Positions 3,721 through 39,842 of a stretch of 64,000 nt of DNA are shown piece after piece. The DNA comes from Ischnura elegans. Lineage: Eukaryota > Arthropoda > Insecta > Odonata > Coenagrionidae. Position 1 is the first letter of the stretch. Every line of letters begins with the position of its first letter. The notes beneath the pieces are model-generated. The model searched no databases. It had not been told where the DNA came from and saw only the letters and a program-made list of their open reading frames with translations. The stretch lies in assembly GCF_921293095.1 (NCBI RefSeq), contig NC_060254.1, positions 105,982,917-106,046,916 on the forward strand, written 5' to 3'. The position numbers and the translations under genes are program-made.

Positions 3721-4634
3721 CGAGAGGGGACCTAACGGTTGAGAGAGGGATCTGCTTTTCCCGTAAAGGGTTCCAAGCAGTGATATTTTCTGAGTCAGTG
3801 TGAGAATCCTGGTCGCCTCTGAGTGCATCTGTTTGTCTGTGGGATTTTTTTGGTTAATCAACTTTTTCCGATGTAGCGAAAAGGTGTGATGGCTGACTGG
3901 CGGGGTGGGCATGCGGCAGTGAAGTTTATTTTATTTATTTTTTTTTGTAGGGGAAAACTCCCGCAGAAACTCTAGTGATGCTTAAAACTGCTTTTGGGAA
4001 TAGTAATCTAAGTAAAGCACGTGTCTACGACTGGTTTTCGCATCTCAACAATGGACAGATGTCGATTGATGACCATCCTCATTAAGGGCACCCGTCAACA
4101 TCAAGAACGGACGGCAATGTTGCAAAAATCCACTCCCTCGTTCAAGAAGATCGTTGCCGAACCATAGAAGAACTTTATAGGTATTTTGCAGAGGTTAAGG
4201 GAAACTATCCGGAGAAAAAGGGCTGATCTTTGGCACACAGGTGATTGGTTCTTCCACCATGACAATGTAGCCGCCCACACCGCAATGTCCATGAAGTGGT
4301 TTTTGACAAAAAAAGGCATCACGCCAATCGTTCACCCCCACTTTTCACCAGATATTGCCACCTGTTACTCTCTCTACTTCCTAGACTGAAAAGGGATATG
4401 AACGGAAAAGGTTTTGGGCCGGTAGATGAAGTTAAACAATAATCGGTGAAAGGCCTAAAGAACATTGATTTTAGTGAATTAAAAAATTGTTTTGAAGTGT
4501 CGAAGTAACGATTAGATGAATGAATGTGTTGCAGTCAATGAGGATTACTTGGAAGGTGATAAAAATTTATAGAGAAAATATTGATTAATGAAAAAGTTAC
4601 TGCGCAATTCCCGTTATTTTTGGCTCCCCTCATG
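3721..4634 (+). mobile_element. Decayed mariner transposon
   Basis: Boundaries were set by comparison with repeat copy A, which lacks this DNA: TA at 3719-3720 and TA at 4635-4636 are the target duplication. The ends, CGAGAGGGGACC and (inverted) CATGAGGGGAGCC, are weakly inverted. The interior holds a broken mariner transposase, described separately. At 914 bp it is shorter than the usual 1.3 kb, consistent with internal deletion. Confidence 0.75.
3955..4575 (+). pseudogene. mariner transposase pseudogene
   Basis: Tc1/mariner transposases cut and paste DNA flanked by mariner termini. The 5' part reads as the mariner helix-turn-helix region (ARVYDWFSHLNNGQMS, then GHPSTSRTDGN and VQEDRCRTIEELY) but has a stop between them. 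It then jumps in another frame to the C-terminal catalytic part: LRETIRRKRADLW, WFFHHDNVAAHTAMS (second catalytic Asp in HHDN) and HPHFSPDIATC, where the family usually has HPPYSPDLAPCD. The tail near 4540 still shows the VNEDYLEGD-like end. About 130 residues containing the first catalytic Asp are missing and several stops are present, so the copy is dead. Family assignment is firm; the subfamily is not determined. Confidence 0.85.
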
Positions 4635-22261: not shown

Positions 22262-22407
22262 TGTAAGTTCTCAATAGGTAAATAACACCATATCATGAAT
22301 TCTAATTACCATGAAAGACTCACGACCGACAAAGTTTTGTCGGTTGTGAGTTTTTCATGGTAATTATAATTCATGATATAGTATTATTTACCCATTGAGA
22401 ACTTACA
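22262..22407. repeat. Fold-back palindrome, 73-bp arms
   Basis: Bases 22262-22334 are nearly complementary to 22335-22407, from TGTAAGTTCTCAAT at the tip to ACCGACAAA at the centre, with only a few mismatches and essentially no loop. Probably a small fold-back/MITE-type element in the left arm of the outer transposon. No clear target duplication. Confidence 0.8.
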
Positions 22408-22503
22408 AAACTTACTCGGCCACTTAAATAACTCTGCGAAAAATGAGATTCTCATGGCTAATTCACGCACCCCCAGCATCCAGCATTGTTAATCCCTTAC
22501 AGA

Positions 22504-22850
22504 AAATTAATACTGGTGGCCAGTATTTTTAATACTGAAATACAGTATTAAAAATACTGGATTCAGTGATTTTCAGTATTAAAATCACTGACAACCAGTA
22601 TTTTCAATACTGGAAGAGTGCCTTTAATACTGGATCTCAGTATTAAAAATACTGGCTCTGGTGATTTTCAGTATTAAAATCACTGACAACCAGTATTTTC
22701 AATACTGGAAGAGTGCCTTTAATACTGGATCTCAGTATTAAAAATACTGGCTCTAGTGTTTGTCAGTATTAAAATCACTGACAACCAGTATTTTCAATAC
22801 TGGAAGAGTGGCTTTAATAGTGGATCTCGGTATTGAAAATACTGGCATCA
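22504..22850 (+). repeat. Left subterminal repeat array (95-bp units)
   Basis: About three and a half tandem units of 95 bp; CAGTATTAAAATCACTG begins at 22574, 22669 and 22764. Each unit also carries inverted pairs of the form CAGTATT..AATACTG. The array starts about 10 bp inside the left terminus of the CMC element. Such arrays are the expected binding sites for the element's transposase or accessory protein. Confidence 0.88.
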
Positions 22851-23142
22851 ATGATTTTATGGAAATTTATTATTAGGCAAGTGACTTCACTGCTGGCCAC
22901 CATTTAGCATTAAAAATTTTGGAATCTGGGGTGCTAAGGAAAAAAATGCTGCCTCCATTTTTGTCACAAAAATCTTTTATCTCAACTGGATCATGCATTT
23001 CATGTCATATACTATAAAATGTTTCGTGATGTGTCATAAATTAGATTACCCACTTGTATGAAGAGATAGGTGTATCACCAAATAACTGGATGCATAAGTT
23101 ATTGAAAACAATGACATTATTTATTGACCATTTTAAGTACTT

Positions 23143-25955
23143 TTAGTCCCTTTCCAAAGAGTTAACCAGAGGAAATATACATAATTTATTCTCAAATGGA
23201 ATCAAAACACACTTGTTGCACAACATTTCTGGAAATACAGCAATACATTCAGGAGTTAATTCAGAAATATATGGGAAGGCATTGGAAGTAATACCAATTG
23301 ATTTTTCTCGGAAAAGTGTTTCATTGGTTTGGTGTAGCTTCACTCCTAAAATAATGCATGTCATTTTATTGGAGCTCACAGTTTTAACTTTGAGAGCATG
23401 CGTAATAAAAATCAATTGCTTATTTTGGAGCTGCACGACATAATTAACTCGTTTCGTCATACGTGTATAGCTTTGAACGTGAAAGAGAACATTTTTATAA
23501 ATAAATCTCTGGAATGAAATTGCATTGTTCCAATATACTTCCTCACCAACTAAATTTTCAACCGTCACTTTCTGAGCCAAAGTCAAGGATACAATGTCTG
23601 GAGCACCAAACAATCTCACATAATCACTATGATTTTCGCATAAACTTGATCTATGCTTAGCATAAGTAAGCTTCCCATATAATAACTTTGCACAGTTGGA
23701 TTGAGATGTTTCCATAATTTCAGAGGCCTTTTCCCTAAGTGCCTGTAACCTTAAATACGACTTGCATATTTGATGTGGTACTGCTTGTGAGCTTTGGAAC
23801 ATTCGGGCCAGGACCCCATTGTTGTGCTCATAAGGGAAGGCTGATACTCCCCACAGAGATCCAAAATTTTGTACACTTTTTGGGATGTGCAATAACAAGT
23901 GACAATTAAATTTCAATAATTGTGGGGTATTGTAAACATCCTCCATTGATAGCACAAACTTCCTCAGAGCTTTCTCAGCCAAAGAGAACTCTTTCGGGCT
24001 GATATGTTCTTGAAGGAATGTTTTAATGCTATACACCAAAAGGGACCAATGGTCAAGGTATTTCATTGGAAAATTAACAGCTTTTAAAGAAATTACAGAA
24101 TAGTACAACAAAAAATTTTTCCACTCTGATGCCTTCCATAATTTTATGTCACTTAATGAGCGAGGTGTTCTAGTGATTTCACTTGGTGGTTTCACAGACT
24201 GAAGGACATTATCAATTATTTTACCTTTTTTATTGCTACCGATGTAAAAGGGCTGACTTTGATTCATGGGAGAAAGCCACCAACACACCAGAGTCTTCAC
24301 TACACCAAGTAGCACACAGTGCATGTATTCTGGGACGAAGGACACAATGATATTGAAAACTTTCAGAAGCAAAAGCACCGAGGGTCCTTTAATTCCATTT
24401 ATGCTCTTCCCCGTCCTTTGCACCTCTCGTGTATCACGCAGGTGCTGTTCCTGCGTTCTCGGAAGTCCTACATCTCCCCTGTACATTCGTGCTTGGCCAC
24501 GACCTACCGCAATTTCCTCACCTTCGTGCAAACAGAAAGGGCATCCTTGAGCTCCACGAAACGTTTTTAAGTTTTGCAATAAAGGCCTTGCTTGGGAGTC
24601 CACAGAGGCTAGGATTGTATGAACTTTAATGTTACGAACCTCTAAATCATCCGGCAATTGAATTTGGATGCCTTCAGTATGCAAAACATTCAGCTCCTCA
24701 ATGAATGGCTGGAGATAAGTGTTCATGTTCGGTTTACTTGGGCCATACCATAACCCACAGAGCATTATGTTTTCCCTTCTCTTCTTAAAAGGCAACTCAT
24801 TCACGGCTACCTGAATTGGCCAGAGTGAAACTTTTGACGATTTAAAAATCTTCACGCCATCAGTGTTCCACTGTAGAGTAATGTCAGGCTTGCAGATTAC
24901 TCTCTTTTCTTTCAACTTTTTGTACACTTTGCCACTAATCACGTCCGTTTCTTTATCAACGTCCCACCGCAATGCAGAACAAAAAGTTACATCATTCAGC
25001 AGTTTAGCCAATTGCTCCTGCAAAGGGATTTGAATGAAGTAACTCCCTTTCTCCTTCAGTTCATCTATGGACCACCTCAATCCACACTCACACTCTTTCT
25101 CTTCCATTCCATTCATAAATTTTATGAGCTTAAGGCAATTCCGGTCACCACAGTAAAAGTGAGTTCTGACCTCTGGCAACGTTGCGAATCTTTTCAGAAA
25201 CATATGGAGAGAACCGTGAGTTCTGGTGGGTAGGTGGCAGTCAACTAGTTCAATTAAATGTTCTAAGGCTACGTCAGACAACCCAAAACGCAAGGCATAG
25301 CTCATAATTAAGAGCTCACTTTCCTTCCTTGACAATCTGCTCCCTTCGTAGAGTGAAGTTCCCTCTCTGTTGGTATTTACCTCATTTTCTTCAAACAAAC
25401 CTGTGGGATTAAACTCCCCATCATCACTACCACTATCACTGTCCTCAATGAAACTGTCATTAGGCTCAGAAGCCGGTGAATCCATATTCAAAACATCAGG
25501 TAGTGATTCCACCTCACAACCATCATCGCAAAAAGACATCCTGGTGGAACAAACCTGAGAATTTTCAAGCATCTCAATATCTTGGTTACTACAACTACTT
25601 TGGCTGATACCAAGTTCCCAGTCATCATCTCCCATTTCAGAATCACTGCCAGCTCCCAAGTCTTCCAGCGAAGGATCACTATCGGTGTCACTTAGGTGTT
25701 CTCCAGGGTGAACCTGCATAGCAGTAATAGAAGTAAATACTCCAGAACATCTTAGGGAAATAATTATTAAAGCATTGCCAAACATCAATAGTTATATATT
25801 CCATCTGTCAATACGGATGGAATTAGGAACTTACTAACCTCAACATCCGATACTGAGGCATTATCTTCATGTGGTTGCAGTCGTCTTCGTAATGTAGCCT
25901 CCGGTATACTGATGTTCACGTCACTCAAGTACCGTTTGTACGGTCCACGCGACAT
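23143..25955 (-). CDS. CMC-superfamily DDE transposase, 895 aa
   Basis: Cuts and inserts the element in the nucleus. Exon 1 is 25955-25839 (ATG, 39 codons, starting MSRGPYKRYL); the intron 25838-25714 has GTTAGT and TATGCAG borders; exon 2 is 25713-23143. Joining keeps the frame. The N-terminus to about residue 150 is acidic and low-complexity. Cys residues near 227, 232, 247 and 249 (YCGDRNC, ECECG) look like a zinc site. The likely catalytic triad is Asp324 in WNTDGVKIF, Asp411 in ASVDSQARP and Glu668 in SAFPYEHNNG. A CxxC at 430-433 (GCPFC) and EYMHCVLLGVVK (about 501-512) are hallmarks of the CMC/EnSpm transposase family. An AATAAA signal on the minus strand lies 18 bases after the stop. 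Length is in the usual range and no stop or shift is seen. The exon-2 frame also opens with an ATG at 25788, but that lies in the intron; the spliced start is preferred because similar proteins begin with a short basic MSR-type leader. Confidence 0.88.
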
Positions 25956-26420
25956 CGTACCTCAAAGATTATATTCTAGAGATTGTGCCTTACTACTGTG
26001 GTTATTACCAGTTATTACGATCAATTACGATGGCGGACTACCTAAGAACTATGGAACATAGTTTTAGTGGTAACTCAACTTCGATCATCTTTCTTGTACA
26101 TCAATTATTTCTTCCATATTAATAATTTAATTATGCCCAGACTTGCGTCAAAACCGTCAAAACAATATAAAGGTCATAATATATTTTTCTCTTTTCCACC
26201 TTGTGAACGTTTTGAACGACCTTGGACCAGAACAAAAGCCTATCCAGATTCATTTCGCACCTCTTTTTTTACTTTCATTCGTCACATTACCGTTATCTTG
26301 ATGTCCGTGTGCTCCATGTGGTAGGGCTGGTGAAATATTTCAGTGTAACTGCATCCTGTGGTGTAATTTACGAATTCAGCCTTTTTTTAGTTATTCTGAA
26401 CTGTAATCACCATCGATATC
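25956..26420. promoter_or_regulatory. Shared divergent promoter region of the CMC element
   Basis: The 465 bp between the two divergent start codons must contain both promoters. I see AT-rich DNA, a GATGGCGG motif near 26028 (YY1-like core) and no sharp TATA box placed convincingly for either gene. A short frame at 26067-26324 is not supported as coding. The region is probably where the element's two genes are co-regulated. Confidence 0.5.
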
Positions 26421-29400
26421 ATGTCACATGAGGGTGAAATACCAGCGACTCCGTTATCGGACAGAGAATGTCTATTGGTGCAATTTGTACACGAGAGGAA
26501 GAAACCTGTTCAAGTTGCTTTTCAAGCGTGGGTTAAGGACAGATCTTTAGATTTGAAGAAGGCAGTGGAATCGGAAATTGTTATCCGTTGGCCTTGTGAA
26601 GTGGACGTCGTGTGCGCAAAGTTAATGGAGCGGAAGCTGAGGAATTGCGTAAATTGGCAGGACTTGGTCGTGAAAGTTCGGGCTGTAGGAGGTAAGTACG
26701 AATTCCACTATGCTGAAATCTCCTTGCATTACACCCTTCACTGTGGCCTAAGCAGTTTTCTAGAACTTGTAACGTATAATTGAAATATGTTGCACCGGCA
26801 CTTCTATTCCAGAATGGACTGACATGTGCCGGCAGGCCAGTAGTATAAAAAAATTCGGTGTACCGAATCCCACTAAAAAGGAAAGGCGGCAGTTATGCGC
26901 GAAGATGATCAGCAGCAGTGAAGGGGAAATGAGTACCACGGAAGAAGAGGTAGAGGAAATTGCGATTTTTTGTTTGTGTATTATCGTTAAAAGCTCCACT
27001 GATTGCTTTTTCATGCTATTTTTCCTCGTGATAATTGAAATATGCAGTCCTCTTTTTATCCATTAATTCATATTCATAGAGGAGGGGTGCGGAGAGCTCA
27101 CTGATGACTGAATTGATTTGGTGATCTATGTGGACAAGTTTTAACTGAGCAAATTTTAAGGGAATAGTAAAATAATCTTATTTCCGTATTAACCACGAAG
27201 TGAGCTGAATGGTGTTGATATTTAAAAGACAAAATTCAACTCATATTGATGTTGGGAGTTAAAAGTAGTCAACATTTTAAGCTCAGTTAGTGAAACTAGT
27301 TAATTTCAATTAATTGAAAATGTTGAGTGTTGAGATTTTGATCACAATTTCCCTCATAATTTGTTTTCTTTTCAATACCTGTGTTACTGCAGAGTCACAT
27401 TGTTTTTATGAAGAAAATTAAGGAAAAATGAAATAACTCTTATTGTTTAATTTTTTTCTTTTTTAGAACAATGACACCATAGATGGAGGGGGAAAACAAA
27501 AGAAACGGCAATGCAGCTCTAATCCTAAATCTAGGAAAGCCATGAATGTTGTTGTGAAGACCACAAATAATGAGGTGGCAAATAGAATCCGTGACTTGCC
27601 ATTGGATCACCTTTTACGGTCTGATGTGGTAATATGCTAAGCTTATGGATCTATAGTTTTCTATTATTCTCCAATCCATAAAGTTCAATATCTTTACCTG
27701 TATAACTGCAATATTTACAGATTTCTGATGATGATGATGATGATGACAGCTCGGATTTTGAAAATAGTTCTAAATCAAGGTTATTGCAGAAAATATCTAT
27801 TCTCCAAGAGGAGAACAAGAAGCTCCGTCAAGACAATGCTAGACTAAGAGCCTTGCGTTGTGTGAGTGAAGGTAATGTGTTCCACCAAACTATATACTAT
27901 TGGTGATATTAATGTCATTTTGTTTATGGGAGCAATGTTATCAGCATTTAATTGTTGCTTGTCTTAATTTACAGATTTAGAAAAAGTATTAGAAAATTCT
28001 ACTGCTGTACGGGAAATGATGCTTAAGCTGAAAGGTGATATGGTATCATTGACCAATGCTGCCTCCACTTCAAGAAAGGCTAACAGAACTGGTAACAGTA
28101 GCTCCTGTAGCAGCTCTGGCAGTTTAATCAACAATCAATGTACAACCACCAATGCTCCTGCGAGCGTCAGCCAGTCCAGTGTTTCGGGTGATCCTCAGCA
28201 TGACATAGGCGATGAAGAAGTATGAGCTTTTTATCATTTCTGTTTTTCATTTTAATAATAAGCTTATCTGAAATTTTGCACAAACACTACCTTCACCAAG
28301 CTTTTATGATAAGGTGCATAGTTATAAGGAATGACTTAATCTATTCATAGTTTCCTATGCTGAATTATTGTTAATGAGGGTATGTCCAGGGGCGGATCCA
28401 GGATTTTTTTCTGGGAGGGGCACAAGCAAGGCCGTATCCAGGATTTTGTTCTGGGTGGGGCACAAGGATACCTCGTAATACAAAACGAATGCAATGATAA
28501 TGGGAGCGTATTAAAAATCTTGCATATTTTTTAGGGTCTGGGGGGGGCACGTGCCCCCGTGCCCACCCCCTGGATCCGCCTATGGGTATGTCTATCTGTG
28601 AATTTACTGGTATAGAGCTTTAGGACAGAGAATATGTTACTGTCATTAGAATAATTCCAATTTAGAGCCTGTATAGGTGCATAGCATAGGTAAAAAGTAG
28701 GTGTTCGTAGCAGGAGGAGGGATTGATGTCAATGATTAGCTAAGTTTAATTGGATGCCAAGGGTTAACTACCTCAATACTTCCTCTAAAGCTTGGTATGA
28801 GCTTTCAGTCAACTTATTGCAAAAAGCTATGGGAAAGTCCAGTGTACTTAACTTTCATTTTTTTGGGTGTGTTCCTCGAATAATAAATAAGGTAAGTAAA
28901 TTAATCATTCTTAATTGATTAACATGCTCTCAATCTGTGCCAAGACTCATTAATATGTACTGTAATTTTTCAACTAATTATAGATTAAAATGTTGAGGAT
29001 TCCTTTAAGGAAGTTAAGTTATTCTGTTCACAATTTAACATAGTTTTTTAATAAGTTTAATTTTATTAAAGCTAACTAAAATTTCAGGGCTTCATGAACT
29101 TTGGTGGCCGACTTGTGGAAAAGGAAAGAGTGGCCAGAGTTGACAAGTCTCGCGGCATTTCCTTTTTCACCTCCAACATCATGGCCGTAGTATTTTCTAA
29201 GGAGGAAATGGCCAAGAGCAGTATAGCAGGAGGAGAATGCAATTTAAATAAGAAAAAGGGAGAGGACACTAAAAGCAATAAAGTTCTTCTCAATGTGGAT
29301 GTCAGGAAATCAGTTGAAGGTAAATCTATTCTTCTTTAATAGTATCCTTATGAAAGTTTAATGCTATGTACTTGGCCTTATTTTTTCTCATTCTTTACTC

Positions 29401-29527
29401 TGCAGAATTCATTATGGGCCAATTAAGTATAACTCCTGCTATGATCAGTGAGGTTAAGGCTATCCAAGCAGCAATGAAAGCCAAATTAAATAACGAATCA
29501 ACTGCCTGGAAGAAGAGGACGAAATGA
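26421..29527 (+). CDS. Transposon-encoded BEN-domain-like protein, 439 aa, seven exons
   Basis: Exons: 26421-26691, 26813-26949, 27467-27628, 27721-27871, 27975-28219, 29088-29319, 29406-29527. All junctions are GT/AG and phases match, giving 440 codons including TGA; AATAAA follows at 29562. The donors at 26950 and 28220 are weak and were chosen because they fit the phase. The N-terminal 130 residues (starting MSHEGEIPATPLSD) match nothing I know. Exon 4 has a run of seven Asp and then a leucine-rich coiled coil (LLQKISILQEENKKLRQ, about 209-260), followed by a Ser/Asn-rich linker. The C-terminal 100 residues (ISFFTSNIMAVVFSKEEM, KSSIAGG, later LLNVDVRKSVEEFI) resemble a BEN domain, a helical DNA-binding module of chromatin factors. 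By analogy with TNPA of plant En/Spm it probably binds the subterminal repeats or assists the divergent transposase. BEN assignment is by eye; an alternative is an unrelated helical DNA-binding fold. Confidence 0.72.
28387..28584 (+). mobile_element. hAT-type MITE in intron 5 of the BEN-like gene
   Basis: Ends CAGGGGCGGATCCAGG and (inverted) CATAGGCGGATCCAGG with an exact 8-bp duplication GGTATGTC at 28379-28386 and 28585-28592. The first 50 bp are partly repeated in tandem near the left end (GGATCCAGGATTTT, then GTATCCAGGATTTT). Same family as 462-661 in opposite orientation. Its position in the intron leaves all exons untouched. Confidence 0.9.
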
Positions 29528-29639
29528 GAGGAAACCTTATATCTCTAATGTCTAAATAGGCAATAAATTTTCAGTCCATAATTTTCTGTATTTTCTTTAG
29601 CCTAAAGTACATATGTTTAAAATATATTGTAACATGTCT

Positions 29640-29970
29640 TGGTTAGTCACATCAATCGAGAGGGTTACCCCAAATTTGACCAATTGGTTTACTTGTGTGG
29701 TTTTCCTTCTTGTGAGTTAATGAGTCTGGTCCCATTTTTCCCCCCCGTCTCTATTTTCCGTGAGCTCAAGGAGGCATGTGTGTGGCCTTCAACCCTGCCT
29801 TGTCATATGACGATGTCGTCCCAATGGCCCTTGCGTTAATAGCGACAGCTCACCAATCTCCCCCTTCACCCCGGTGGCATGCAATTCCACCGACAGTGAC
29901 TAGCCTTGGTGTGACCCTCCCTCCTTCCCCTCCCCTTATAGTAGAAGGAGGACTAGTTATTATATAAGTG
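29640..29970. other. Spacer between BEN-like gene and right repeat array
   Basis: Pyrimidine-rich stretches on the plus strand and no motif-bearing frame. Non-coding spacer within the CMC element. Confidence 0.4.
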
Positions 29971-29982
29971 CCCCTTCACAAT

Positions 29983-30250
29983 CAGCATTGAAATCACTGG
30001 CCAGTATTAAAATCACTGGTCAGTATTAAAATCACTGGTCAGTATTAAAATCACTGGCCAGTATTAAAATCACTGGTCAGTATTAAAATCACTGGCCAGT
30101 ATTAAAATCACTGGTCAGTATTAAAATCACCGGTCAGTATTAAAATCACCGGTCAGTATTAAAATCACTGGTCAGTATTAAAATCACTCGTCAATTAATC
30201 ACTGGCAGTAATTTTAATACTGAAATTTTTAATACTGATCAGTATTAAAT
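29983..30250 (+). repeat. Right subterminal repeat array (19-bp units)
   Basis: Eleven consecutive 19-bp units of CAGTATTAAAATCACTGGT occupy 29983-30191, differing mainly in the last base and a few CACC or CTCG variants. Then 30192-30250 has further inverted TTTTAATACTG / CAGTATTAAA copies reaching the right terminus. The core is the same 17-mer as in the left array but with unit length 19 instead of 95. Confidence 0.92.
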
Positions 30251-30261
30251 TTCTGTAAGGG

Positions 30262-31019
30262 AAGTGGCTCGTACTTACTAGGAAACCTTGAGATGTTAAT
30301 GAGAGTAAATTCTTATTAATTTTGACACTAAATAAGACATCACATAGCCCACGAGCATTAAAAAGCTTACCCTAAAGCCTGACGAAATAAAATTTTTAAA
30401 TAAAAATTGCCGATGAAACAGGATTGCTGACACATCTGCTATTAGTATGATCGAATTCATCAAAATGCAAGCAAAAATTAACGTATAGTTCAGTCTCAGC
30501 TACTAAAACTTACCCATATCAGGCGCTAAAGTATTTGAAAAATTATTTGGGATGAGTAAAAGTCCCTAGGTCACTGCAGTAAATGTATCACCCTATTAAA
30601 AATATGAAAGTCCTGCCAAATCACCAGCATAAACACTTGTAAAATAAAACATGTTATCTCTTAGATCACACCTCCGATTTTATACTTACTTTGCATGAAG
30701 TCACCACCGCAAGAAATTTTAAAGAGGCAGGAAAGAAAAAACCCACAGAAATACAATACATATATTATGTATTTTCTATTGTCAACCACAATAATATTTC
30801 CAATTTTCTCTTCTATCCCACATCTAATTTAGCGAAACAATTACTCTTATTCTCTTTCGAATAGAAAATTATTTAAAAGAGGACTGGTCGATACATACAA
30901 ACTATCGTCAATACTTTCTCCGATGAACGTCCACTATCACTGCACCAACTTGCACAAATCAAGTCCACATCCACAAATATGTCACTTCTGCCACAATGTC
31001 TGTCTTCTTGGCGACAGGT
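30262..31019. other. Right arm of outer transposon, unassigned part
   Basis: AT-rich sequence between the CMC right end and THAP pseudo-exon 2. If the THAP gene had later exons they would lie here on the minus strand, but I see no long frame or family motif. Confidence 0.4.
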
Positions 31020-37559: not shown

Positions 37560-37820
37560 TCACAACTTTTTTTCCTGGAGAACTAAATGTCTTTCACTGA
37601 ACACAGTGGATAGCGGTATGGCAAGAAACCTCTTCGCTAATACTTTAAGCCTTGGGTAGGAGATACAAGTCTTCCAGTATTTCCCAGGGAAGGAATTTAG
37701 TGGTGCATTCATCTCTGATAAATAAGCTTCCACTTCAGCTTCAACAATGTTTGCTATGGTGACTTTGGGTACTTTTCCAAATACGTAACTGTATCTTGAC
37801 CATATACCTGTCACAGGCTC
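37560..37820 (-). pseudogene. hAT transposase C-terminal dimerisation fragment
   Basis: Reads VTIANIVEAEVEAYLSEM, then FPGKYWKTCISYPRLKVLA and KRFLAIPLSTVFSERH, ending LQEKKL. Alternating YL, PLxxW-like, YPxLxxLA+, LxIPxxS..SER motifs define the hAT dimerisation domain, which joins transposase monomers. The frame is open to 37928, but upstream of about 37820 it runs into the nested CTCGAG-rich insertion, so the catalytic part is absent. Not functional. Confidence 0.85.
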
Positions 37821-39842
37821 CCTAGTCGATCTCGAGTCGAGTTGAAAATTACTCGCAAGTATCGAGGCGAGTATGATAATTTCTGAAACAGGCAATACAG
37901 CAGTGCATACTATTCTACTCCAATACAATACAATATATTCTACTCCAATTTTCTATGGTGAATGTCTAGCCTTATGTAAGATGGAAAATATAATGAGGAT
38001 CGTTGATGGCTATTGTCAGAAGTAGGAGATGAATGAAAATTAATGTCTTCAATAGTTCCATGGGCACAATTGAAATTGATGAACCTCAAGTAATATGTCT
38101 ACCATTTAAGTCGTATATGTAACCAAGCTACAAGGGAAAGCCCTGAGTATAGTCATTTTCACAGCTATAATAAAGATTACATACTACGTATATGAATCAT
38201 GTAATATTTGGCCCTTTAAAATTCTCAAGCAGAAAAACCAATTATTCTACATGCTCAGACAGCAGGTTTTGACGTCTCCATGTTACAGTATTACTGCCTG
38301 CAGAAAATTGCCTTTTGCTACACACTTGTGTGACTGAGCAAGTACTTTCCCGCCAAAATTGCAAGATTTCGGAGACTTTGGAATTTTTATTAAAAATTGT
38401 ATCAACGATTTTTTTGGATCTTAAATCTTCTGGAATTCAAGAGGACGAAGCGAACGAACTATGGAACTAAACTTTAGTTTTTTAGAGCCAAAAAAATTCA
38501 ATACTTCTCACGTCATTTAATCAACCTTAAAATCTATTGCTTTTTTTAAGTTATCACATCGGACGGACGCAGTAATAAAAAAAGCTAAAAGAGCCTTGTG
38601 GTGTGAAAACTCCCCCTTCCACGCGACTCACCTCGGCGAAGGTGGAAAGAGAAAAAGGGTATCGGTTGTTGCATTTCACGGAAACAGTTCATTTTTCTCT
38701 CTCTTAAGCATGCTGGCTTAATCTCTTCACTTTACTTCAATACCCGAGCCATATTTCTTAATCGTGGGATGGTTCCGAAATATATCCAATCCTTAGTATT
38801 TTATCTCGAGTAATGCGCTAAATGGTCAAGTCGATCTATACATAATCCTTCTTAAAATCCTCAGTTTAGTGTTTTAAGTCAATGAAGACGATTATCCAAT
38901 CTTTAAATGACAATTTTCAAGACTAATGTCTGAAAAAACTTGAAAAATCGGCCTCAGTTACCGAGCCTCAGAGTTCCGCGGCGTGTAGCTCAGTCTTGAT
39001 GCGCGATTGAAAAAATCGCACTTATTTCCTTAGTCGCAAACTTTTTTTCCACGATTTCAAATTAGTACTCTTTAGAAATCACTACTTTATATTGTGGTTC
39101 AAATTTTCCGAGTTATTTTTTCGTAAACGAAAGATAATGTCTACTTTATGTCAAATTTCACGTGAAAAACGGGTCGGCCATTTCGAGTTGTAAAACCAGA
39201 CAGATGAGGGCCAAAATCTTCAAAAGTCATTGGAAGTAAAGGCAAAGCACCAGGTCAAAGGAATATTGCGTTTTTCATTATATAAAACTCATACCAACGC
39301 AAAACCACCTGGATAAATTCAAAGATTTTTTGGGGAAAAACGATATCTCGCGTGACATTGAAAAATTGGTCATCTTTGGTCCCCTGTATCTCACTAAAGA
39401 GTCGTATTTATGTAAAATGGCATAAAAATCTATATCTGGTAATGATTTATGAGTATTTACGCCAATTTTCAAGTCTCTATCCCCAAAAAGGTCATTTTGG
39501 ACTTAATTCCAGCTTTTTCCGATTTCGGACCAGTGTGCGCCGGGCAAAGAAGACGATCGGCCGCCGGGGCTGGCGTAAAGGTATTCGGCACCCACGTCGA
39601 CAACTATAGTGTATTCGGCAAGGTGAAACTACCAGGCCAAGGCGTTAGAATGACATATCGGCTTTAAAAACTGCATTATTACATGAGTTTCATGATAGCG
39701 CTTCCTAGCCTCGAAAGCTCTGTAACCTTAACTACTCGACTCGACATTCGTAATGCTATCTACTCGAAACGCTCGAGTCGAGTACCAACTGCTCGACTCG
39801 ATTTGAATTTTCGAGTACTCGCACATTCCTACAAAATATGTG
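37820..39842. mobile_element. Nested repeat element with CTCGAGTCGAG clusters
   Basis: Both ends of this segment carry CTCGAGTCGAG / CTCGACTCGA motifs with ACTCGCA and GAAAATT nearby: 37823-37875 and, more densely, 39738-39832. It lies within the hAT transposase frame, so I infer a second element inserted there. Exact termini and target duplication were not found. The interior (AT-rich, plus a GC patch near 39530-39600) has no family motif. Confidence 0.45.

Follow-up and report, generated by a model that had tools for sequence, protein, structure and literature searches.

The 64,000 nucleotides of the Ischnura elegans (Odonata) genome analyzed here (RefSeq assembly GCF_921293095.1, contig NC_060254.1, positions 105,982,917 to 106,046,916 of the forward strand; referred to as the window, with position 1 as its first letter) contain a complete-looking CMC-type element of 7,768 bp (22494-30261), which has both ends and two open genes in divergent orientation. 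The window has a GC content of 37.7% and contains zero N. The element is rather likely to be a cut-and-paste CMC (CACTA-Mirage-Chapaev) transposon, nearest to the animal TRC/EnSpm elements, in which a transposase is combined with a BEN-like partner protein that binds the ends of the element in a manner similar to TNPA of maize. The two-gene structure between inverted termini had been proposed in a first-pass annotation of the window and was borne out by the analysis of the termini and the genes.

The terminal inverted repeats comprise 22 bp starting from the CCC core and differ at one position (21/22) between the left (22494-22515, plus strand) and the right terminus (30240-30261, minus strand). 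With the flanking T/A included, 22 of 23 positions match (22493-22515 versus 30240-30262). Both termini begin with CCCTTACAG, and the element is bounded by CCCTTACAG...CTGTAAGGG. In the entire 64 kb, the 12-mer CCCTTACAGAAA has only two exact occurrences, 22494-22505 (plus strand) and 30250-30261 (minus strand), and the number remained at two when one mismatch was allowed (chance mean 0.37). Since two or more occurrences at this tolerance were also obtained in 6 of 100 shuffles, the 12-mer alone is weak evidence and the weight rests on the longer 22-bp match. The combination of short inverted termini and subterminal repeats, which characterizes CMC elements, is present, and CCC-initial termini, as in the animal TRC elements, were found at both ends.

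The transposase gene is located on the minus strand. In the best model, a first exon beginning with ATG (25955-25839) is joined by an inferred splice to a second exon (25713-23143), and the two encode 895 amino acids without an internal stop. This model is not the sole one: eight donor/acceptor pairs in the range searched leave the transposase open for more than 860 amino acids in frame, with differences only near the N-terminus. An AATAAA motif follows 18 bases beyond the stop codon. The entire predicted catalytic core lies in exon 2, as seen from the reading frames, the rebuilt gene, and the Pfam search, which assigned the protein to Transposase_21 (tnp2, PF02992; E = 1.2e-11, 44.6 bits versus a cut-off of 28.6). 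No other Pfam domain was detected in the transposase at E-values up to 1. The CMC signature motifs start at residues 322 (NTDG), 409 (SVDSQ), 429 (GCPFC), 643 (CHLLLH), and 666 (PYEHN); they were placed by eye, without alignment to relatives, using the pattern as far as it is laid out in PMC12730594. Judged by its sequence, the large protein is a Transposase_21 enzyme with the CMC signature residues in place, so that the catalytic domain expected of a CMC element is present and the earlier assignment as a CMC transposase was supported.

Because CCC termini are combined with Transposase_21, a combination described for animal TRC elements (PMC1636069), the element appears to be nearest to the published animal TRC relatives of CACTA. 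CCC-initial termini and a multi-kilobase size are common to this element, SmTRC1, its relatives in Tribolium and Aedes, and Spongebob/EnSpm-4N1 of Hydra (PMC1636069, PMC4298943). The Transposase_21 core is shared with SmTRC1 and relatives, and SmTRC1 likewise gives rise to more than a single protein (PMC1636069). Spongebob, which has CCC termini and 2-bp duplications, has been placed in the TRC group (PMC4298943). In SmTRC1 of Schistosoma, however, the extra proteins arise via alternative splicing, whereas the second protein of the I. elegans element is encoded by a separate, divergent gene; in the accessible part of that report, the extra proteins are not called BEN-like, unlike the partner described here (PMC1636069). 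The first-pass annotation stated that descriptions of animal CMC elements usually rest on the transposase; this needs qualification, as SmTRC1 yields, in addition to its transposase, several proteins from alternative splicing (PMC1636069).

The partner gene was rebuilt on the plus strand (26421-29527) with seven exons, six GT-AG introns, and a single frame throughout, encoding 439 amino acids. Both spliced genes, of 895 and 439 codons, were thereby reproduced as uninterrupted, as claimed before, with the alternatives at the N-terminus of the transposase. Exon 1 (26421-26691) encodes an N-terminal region for which no Pfam match was obtained at E-values up to 10; it may resemble the N-terminus of BEND5-type proteins. 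It is followed by exon 2 (26813-26949), exon 3 (27467-27628), exon 4 (27721-27871), and exon 5 (27975-28219). Exon 4 contains a run of leucine heptads (L211-218-225-232, residues 211-232); a four-leucine run was found in 39 of 5,000 shuffles. The BEN-like similarity is located in exon 6 (29088-29319; phmmer stretch at residues 332-383), and exon 7 (29406-29527) contains the stop codon and the presumed end of the BEN-like domain, without significant similarity of its own. An AATAAA motif begins 35 bases beyond the stop. The divergent start codons of the two genes are separated by a spacer of 465 bp (25956-26420), which, by its position, is the presumed site of both promoters. A bacterial-type promoter scan of this spacer was set aside as inapplicable to a eukaryote. 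No Pfam domain above the cut-offs and no NCBIfam match were obtained for the partner; Shugoshin, CtIP, and similar Pfam matches were all below cut-off and were rejected.

For the C-terminal 117 residues of the partner, BEND6 was the first match among solved structures (E = 0.03). The other 13 structures listed for this part were acetyl-CoA acetyltransferases (E 1.4 to 1.6), which were taken as noise. The local alignment of the partner with BEND6 reached a score of 74, compared with a shuffle mean of 25.5 (standard deviation 4.5), and none of 5,000 shuffles attained this score. Aligned by itself with the initial part of the BEND6 fragment, exon 6 scored 70, a value again reached by none of 5,000 shuffles. 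For control, the BEND6 fragment was compared with every stop-to-stop frame of at least 40 amino acids in the window (677 in total); exon 6 ranked first with a score of 72, followed by a frame with 39. BEND6 had been picked as the top match, which weakens the test, but this is offset by the fact that BEN had been proposed before any search. At the sequence level, the partner carries a leucine-zipper pattern and a BEN-like stretch.

The subterminal 17-mer arrays shared by both ends, which had been noted in the first-pass annotation, were recovered as a family of 21 members at a threshold of at least 81% (11 left and 10 right). One of the left members (22906) is marginal and lies outside the array. 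The earlier observation was strengthened in that the motif of the end arrays is a palindrome, CCAGTATTnnnAATACTGG, the kind of site bound by BEN dimers. The left array (22520-22845) consists of 95-bp repeats with 11 matches to CCAGTATTnnnAATACTGG (at most 4 of 16 positions mismatched), three of them perfect, whereas the right array (29982-30223) is constructed from 19-bp tandem units, which contain a degenerate form of the palindrome with 12 matches and no perfect one. At the same stringency, 26 matches were found in the window: besides the 11 and 12 in the arrays, there were none in the interior of the element and three outside of it. The chance level, determined in 20 simulations of the full window with a first-order Markov model, had a mean of 3.6 and a maximum of 11. 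The half-site heptamer CAGTATT showed a similar distribution (42 in the window, with 21 in the left array, 13 in the right array, 0 in the 7.1-kb interior, and 8 outside). A function of the palindrome as a site of promoter autoregulation was rejected, because CAGTATT is absent from the interior.

Since the end arrays are palindromes and BEN-solo proteins bind palindromic DNA as dimers (PMC6317261, PMC6911014), a TNPA-like end-binding role would best explain the partner. The Transposase_21 enzyme would cut and join the CCC-type ends, while the partner would dimerize via its leucine zipper and bind the palindromes in both ends via its C-terminal BEN-like domain. It may coat both ends and hold them together, and thereby aid the transposase in the assembly of a paired-end complex, as might be expected by analogy with TNPA and TNPD in maize En/Spm. 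We infer that the partner binds the end palindromes, that it is needed in transposition, and that both genes move jointly. In maize En/Spm, repeated subterminal motifs are bound by TNPA, which is a likeness to the arrays described here. TNPD interacts with TNPA and stabilizes its DNA binding, and both proteins are essential to transposition in maize (PMC1636069). Insensitive occupies its palindromic site as a dimer, and multimerization via a coiled coil and one further region allows it to hold two sites simultaneously (PMC6317261).

Several known systems share parts of this arrangement. A transposase plus a second protein is also found in maize En/Spm (TNPD and TNPA) and in plant CACTA elements with a second open reading frame, ORF2 (PMC1636069, PMC4158355). 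The plant elements, however, have CACTA termini instead of CCCTT, Spm is one alternatively spliced unit instead of two divergent genes, and the partner of the I. elegans element looks BEN-like. The BEN-solo factors Insensitive, Elba1/2, and BEND6 resemble the partner in the position of the BEN-type sequence near the C-terminus, and Insensitive also has a coiled-coil pattern upstream of BEN; dimerization on palindromic DNA would be expected for the partner by analogy. Unlike the partner, which is carried inside a transposon, these factors are host chromatin factors, and the likeness of the partner to them is confined to one exon and lies below Pfam detection. PIF/Harbinger-type elements with a Myb/SANT partner (Nuwa) have the same two-protein design of a transposase and a DNA-binding protein, but differ from this element in both the transposase superfamily and the partner domain (PMC12730594).

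Several results weigh against an end-binding BEN-like partner in a mobile element; they concern the partner itself, the arrays, and the mobility of the element. With the whole partner as query, BEND6 was only the second match among solved structures (E = 0.13), behind a serine-rich mL77 match (E = 0.073) that was taken as noise. Exon 7 scored 23 against the second part of the BEND6 fragment, which was equalled by 303 of 5,000 shuffles, and when the end of exon 6 was added, 754 of 5,000 shuffles were as good. Neither a BEN nor a DUF4806 profile was detected in Pfam at E-values up to 1 for the whole protein and up to 10 for the C-terminal part, in searches whose filters discard most matches above about 0.1. 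AlphaFold predictions, made without alignment for exon 6 and exon 1 separately, were unusable (mean predicted local distance difference test, pLDDT, 42.9 and 43.5). As a match to the curated Pfam BEN profile, by which BEN domains are recognized, was not obtained, the partner is filed as BEN-like and not as a BEN member. The earlier proposal of a BEN-like partner thus holds for exon 6, but is supported neither by a significant score of exon 7 nor by a Pfam BEN call. In terms of sequence, the similarity rests on exon 6 and exon 7 contributes almost nothing; about half a BEN domain is supported, and the remainder is assumed.

The end of the BEND6 similarity near the exon 6/7 junction and the silence of Pfam on the partner would also be in accordance with a wrong gene model, in which exons were spliced together by chance and the BEN similarity of exon 6 stems from a different or broken gene. 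The splices were predicted from sequence alone, which adds to this concern. All six junctions are nevertheless GT-AG and keep a single frame, exon 6 ranked first among the 677 frames, and 439 open codons are very improbable by chance (approximately 7e-14 at the composition of the partner, before counting the freedom of splice-site choice). We regard a wrong model as highly improbable.

With respect to the arrays, the sites on the right are imperfect palindromes, the best of which has 2 mismatches. The copies in the arrays are tandem duplicates and hence not independent sites. The shorter core CACTGG is not restricted to the ends: of its 25 occurrences in the window, the left array contains 0 and the right array 9, whereas 2 lie within the interior and 14 outside the element. 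In addition, the known BEN sites CCAATTGG and ACATGT are unlike CCAGTATT of this element.

The partner could also be a passenger without a role in transposition, if an autonomous CMC transposon had fortuitously picked up a BEN-like gene of its host (transduplication). Its six introns, compared with one in the transposase gene, would fit a gene captured from genomic DNA. The element is known from one copy only, and BEN proteins are normal regulators of the host (PMC6317261, PMC6911014). A second open reading frame is, on the other hand, present in plant CACTA elements as well (PMC4158355). The partner is open from the start codon through the poly(A) signal, and the ends of the element carry palindromes that such a protein could bind. 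Captured gene fragments are usually partial, which also counts against a capture. Overall, a captured passenger is possible, albeit unlikely.

No exact target-site duplication of 2-8 bp was found around 22494-30261, where the flanks read AAT on the left and AAG on the right. The 2-bp duplication that is a feature of TRC elements was likewise not seen at this element (flanking pairs AT versus AA in the single copy examined). Since a 2-bp duplication accompanied just 7 of 14 copies of SmTRC1 (PMC1636069), its absence from a single copy carries little weight. A second copy of the element was not detected in the rest of the 64-kb window by nucleotide and protein comparison, and the element is known from a single copy. 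No relatives of the transposase or the partner were found in viral contigs, and none of the transposase in prokaryote genomes: in pattern scans, 1 and 600 stretches in viral contigs matched the patterns for transposase and partner, respectively, and 8 stretches in prokaryotes matched that for the transposase, with 0 relatives among them. A looser transposase motif had 0 matches in viral contigs and 0 in prokaryote genomes, and the exact end motifs had 0 and 0 in viral contigs. These misses say little, because the collections were not built to hold animal genomes.

Intron 5 of the partner gene contains a non-autonomous hAT-type insertion (28387-28584, plus strand), which does not belong to the element proper. 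Its termini are CAGGGGCGGATCCAGG / CATAGGCGGATCCAGG, and it is accompanied by an exact duplication of 8 bp, GGTATGTC; the window also contains a related stretch (488-661), with 80% identity over 187 aligned positions. The insertion leaves the coding sequence of the partner open. For this insertion to occur, the present copy, or an ancestor of it, must have resided at the site for some time, which speaks against a very recent origin of the element. The recent activity suggested in the first-pass annotation was accordingly not supported, given the nested insertion and the missing exact target-site duplication. The independent pairing of the two genes in this lineage, also proposed there, is a conjecture. 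The same two features, together with the lack of a second copy within 64 kb, would suit an old, immobile, or domesticated copy, of which the host keeps one or both genes while the role in transposition is gone. This is quite unlikely, as the ends are kept at 21/22 together with the arrays, which a domesticated gene would not need. The insertion is intronic and the gene remains open, and the duplication was found in just 7 of 14 SmTRC1 copies (PMC1636069). Two solo ends around a host gene were rejected as an explanation, because the inner ends were not found.

Plant CACTA elements with two proteins and Schistosoma TRC elements with several are known already. A CMC element with a BEN-like second gene was not found in the literature searched, which was partially covered and did not include Repbase Reports, so that a prior description is possible. 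Neither PMC5704228, in which BEN appears within a reference title, nor PMC11075544 describes such an element in the accessible parts. To our knowledge, the recognition of long subterminal arrays in animal CACTA relatives is an open question. An element with a transposase, a zipper-bearing BEN-like protein, and palindromes at both ends makes the recognition of the arrays directly testable. If the proposed role of the partner is true, the element would show that the task of TNPA/TNPD can be solved in a second way, and transposition would be connected with an animal chromatin-boundary protein family.

It may tentatively be asked whether this applies beyond the single element. Animal CMC/TRC elements as a class could carry TNPA-like end-binding subunits of the BEN family that are matched to palindromic arrays, some multicopy BEN/DUF4806 genes of animals could be transposon cargo, and host BEN-solo boundary factors could have originated in such elements or have been lent to them; we regard this as doubtful at present. 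DUF4806 has been described as a BEN subtype (PMC11075544) and is multicopy in two Hydra genomes, with 69 and 54 copies, whereas five further cnidarians have 0 to 6 (PMC7642931). A wider link between BEN and transposons is conceivable from these copy numbers, which offer a lead but do not demonstrate that transposons carry these genes; the accessible parts of both papers make no such statement.

Further features were observed in the surroundings of the element. A long palindrome at approximately 22300-22370, about 125 bp to the left of the element, has its center near 22334 and matches in 36 of 40 base pairs. At 37560-37952 on the minus strand, a remnant of a hAT transposase was detected (Dimer_Tnp_hAT, Pfam E = 6e-5), whereas nine other frames scanned alongside gave no match. 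A stretch at about 3950-4570 resembles, by eye, a broken mariner-type transposase. At about 1730-2190, repeated CCACGTGGATTCCACGTGG-like palindromes border a short stretch, which, also by eye, is possibly another small transposon.

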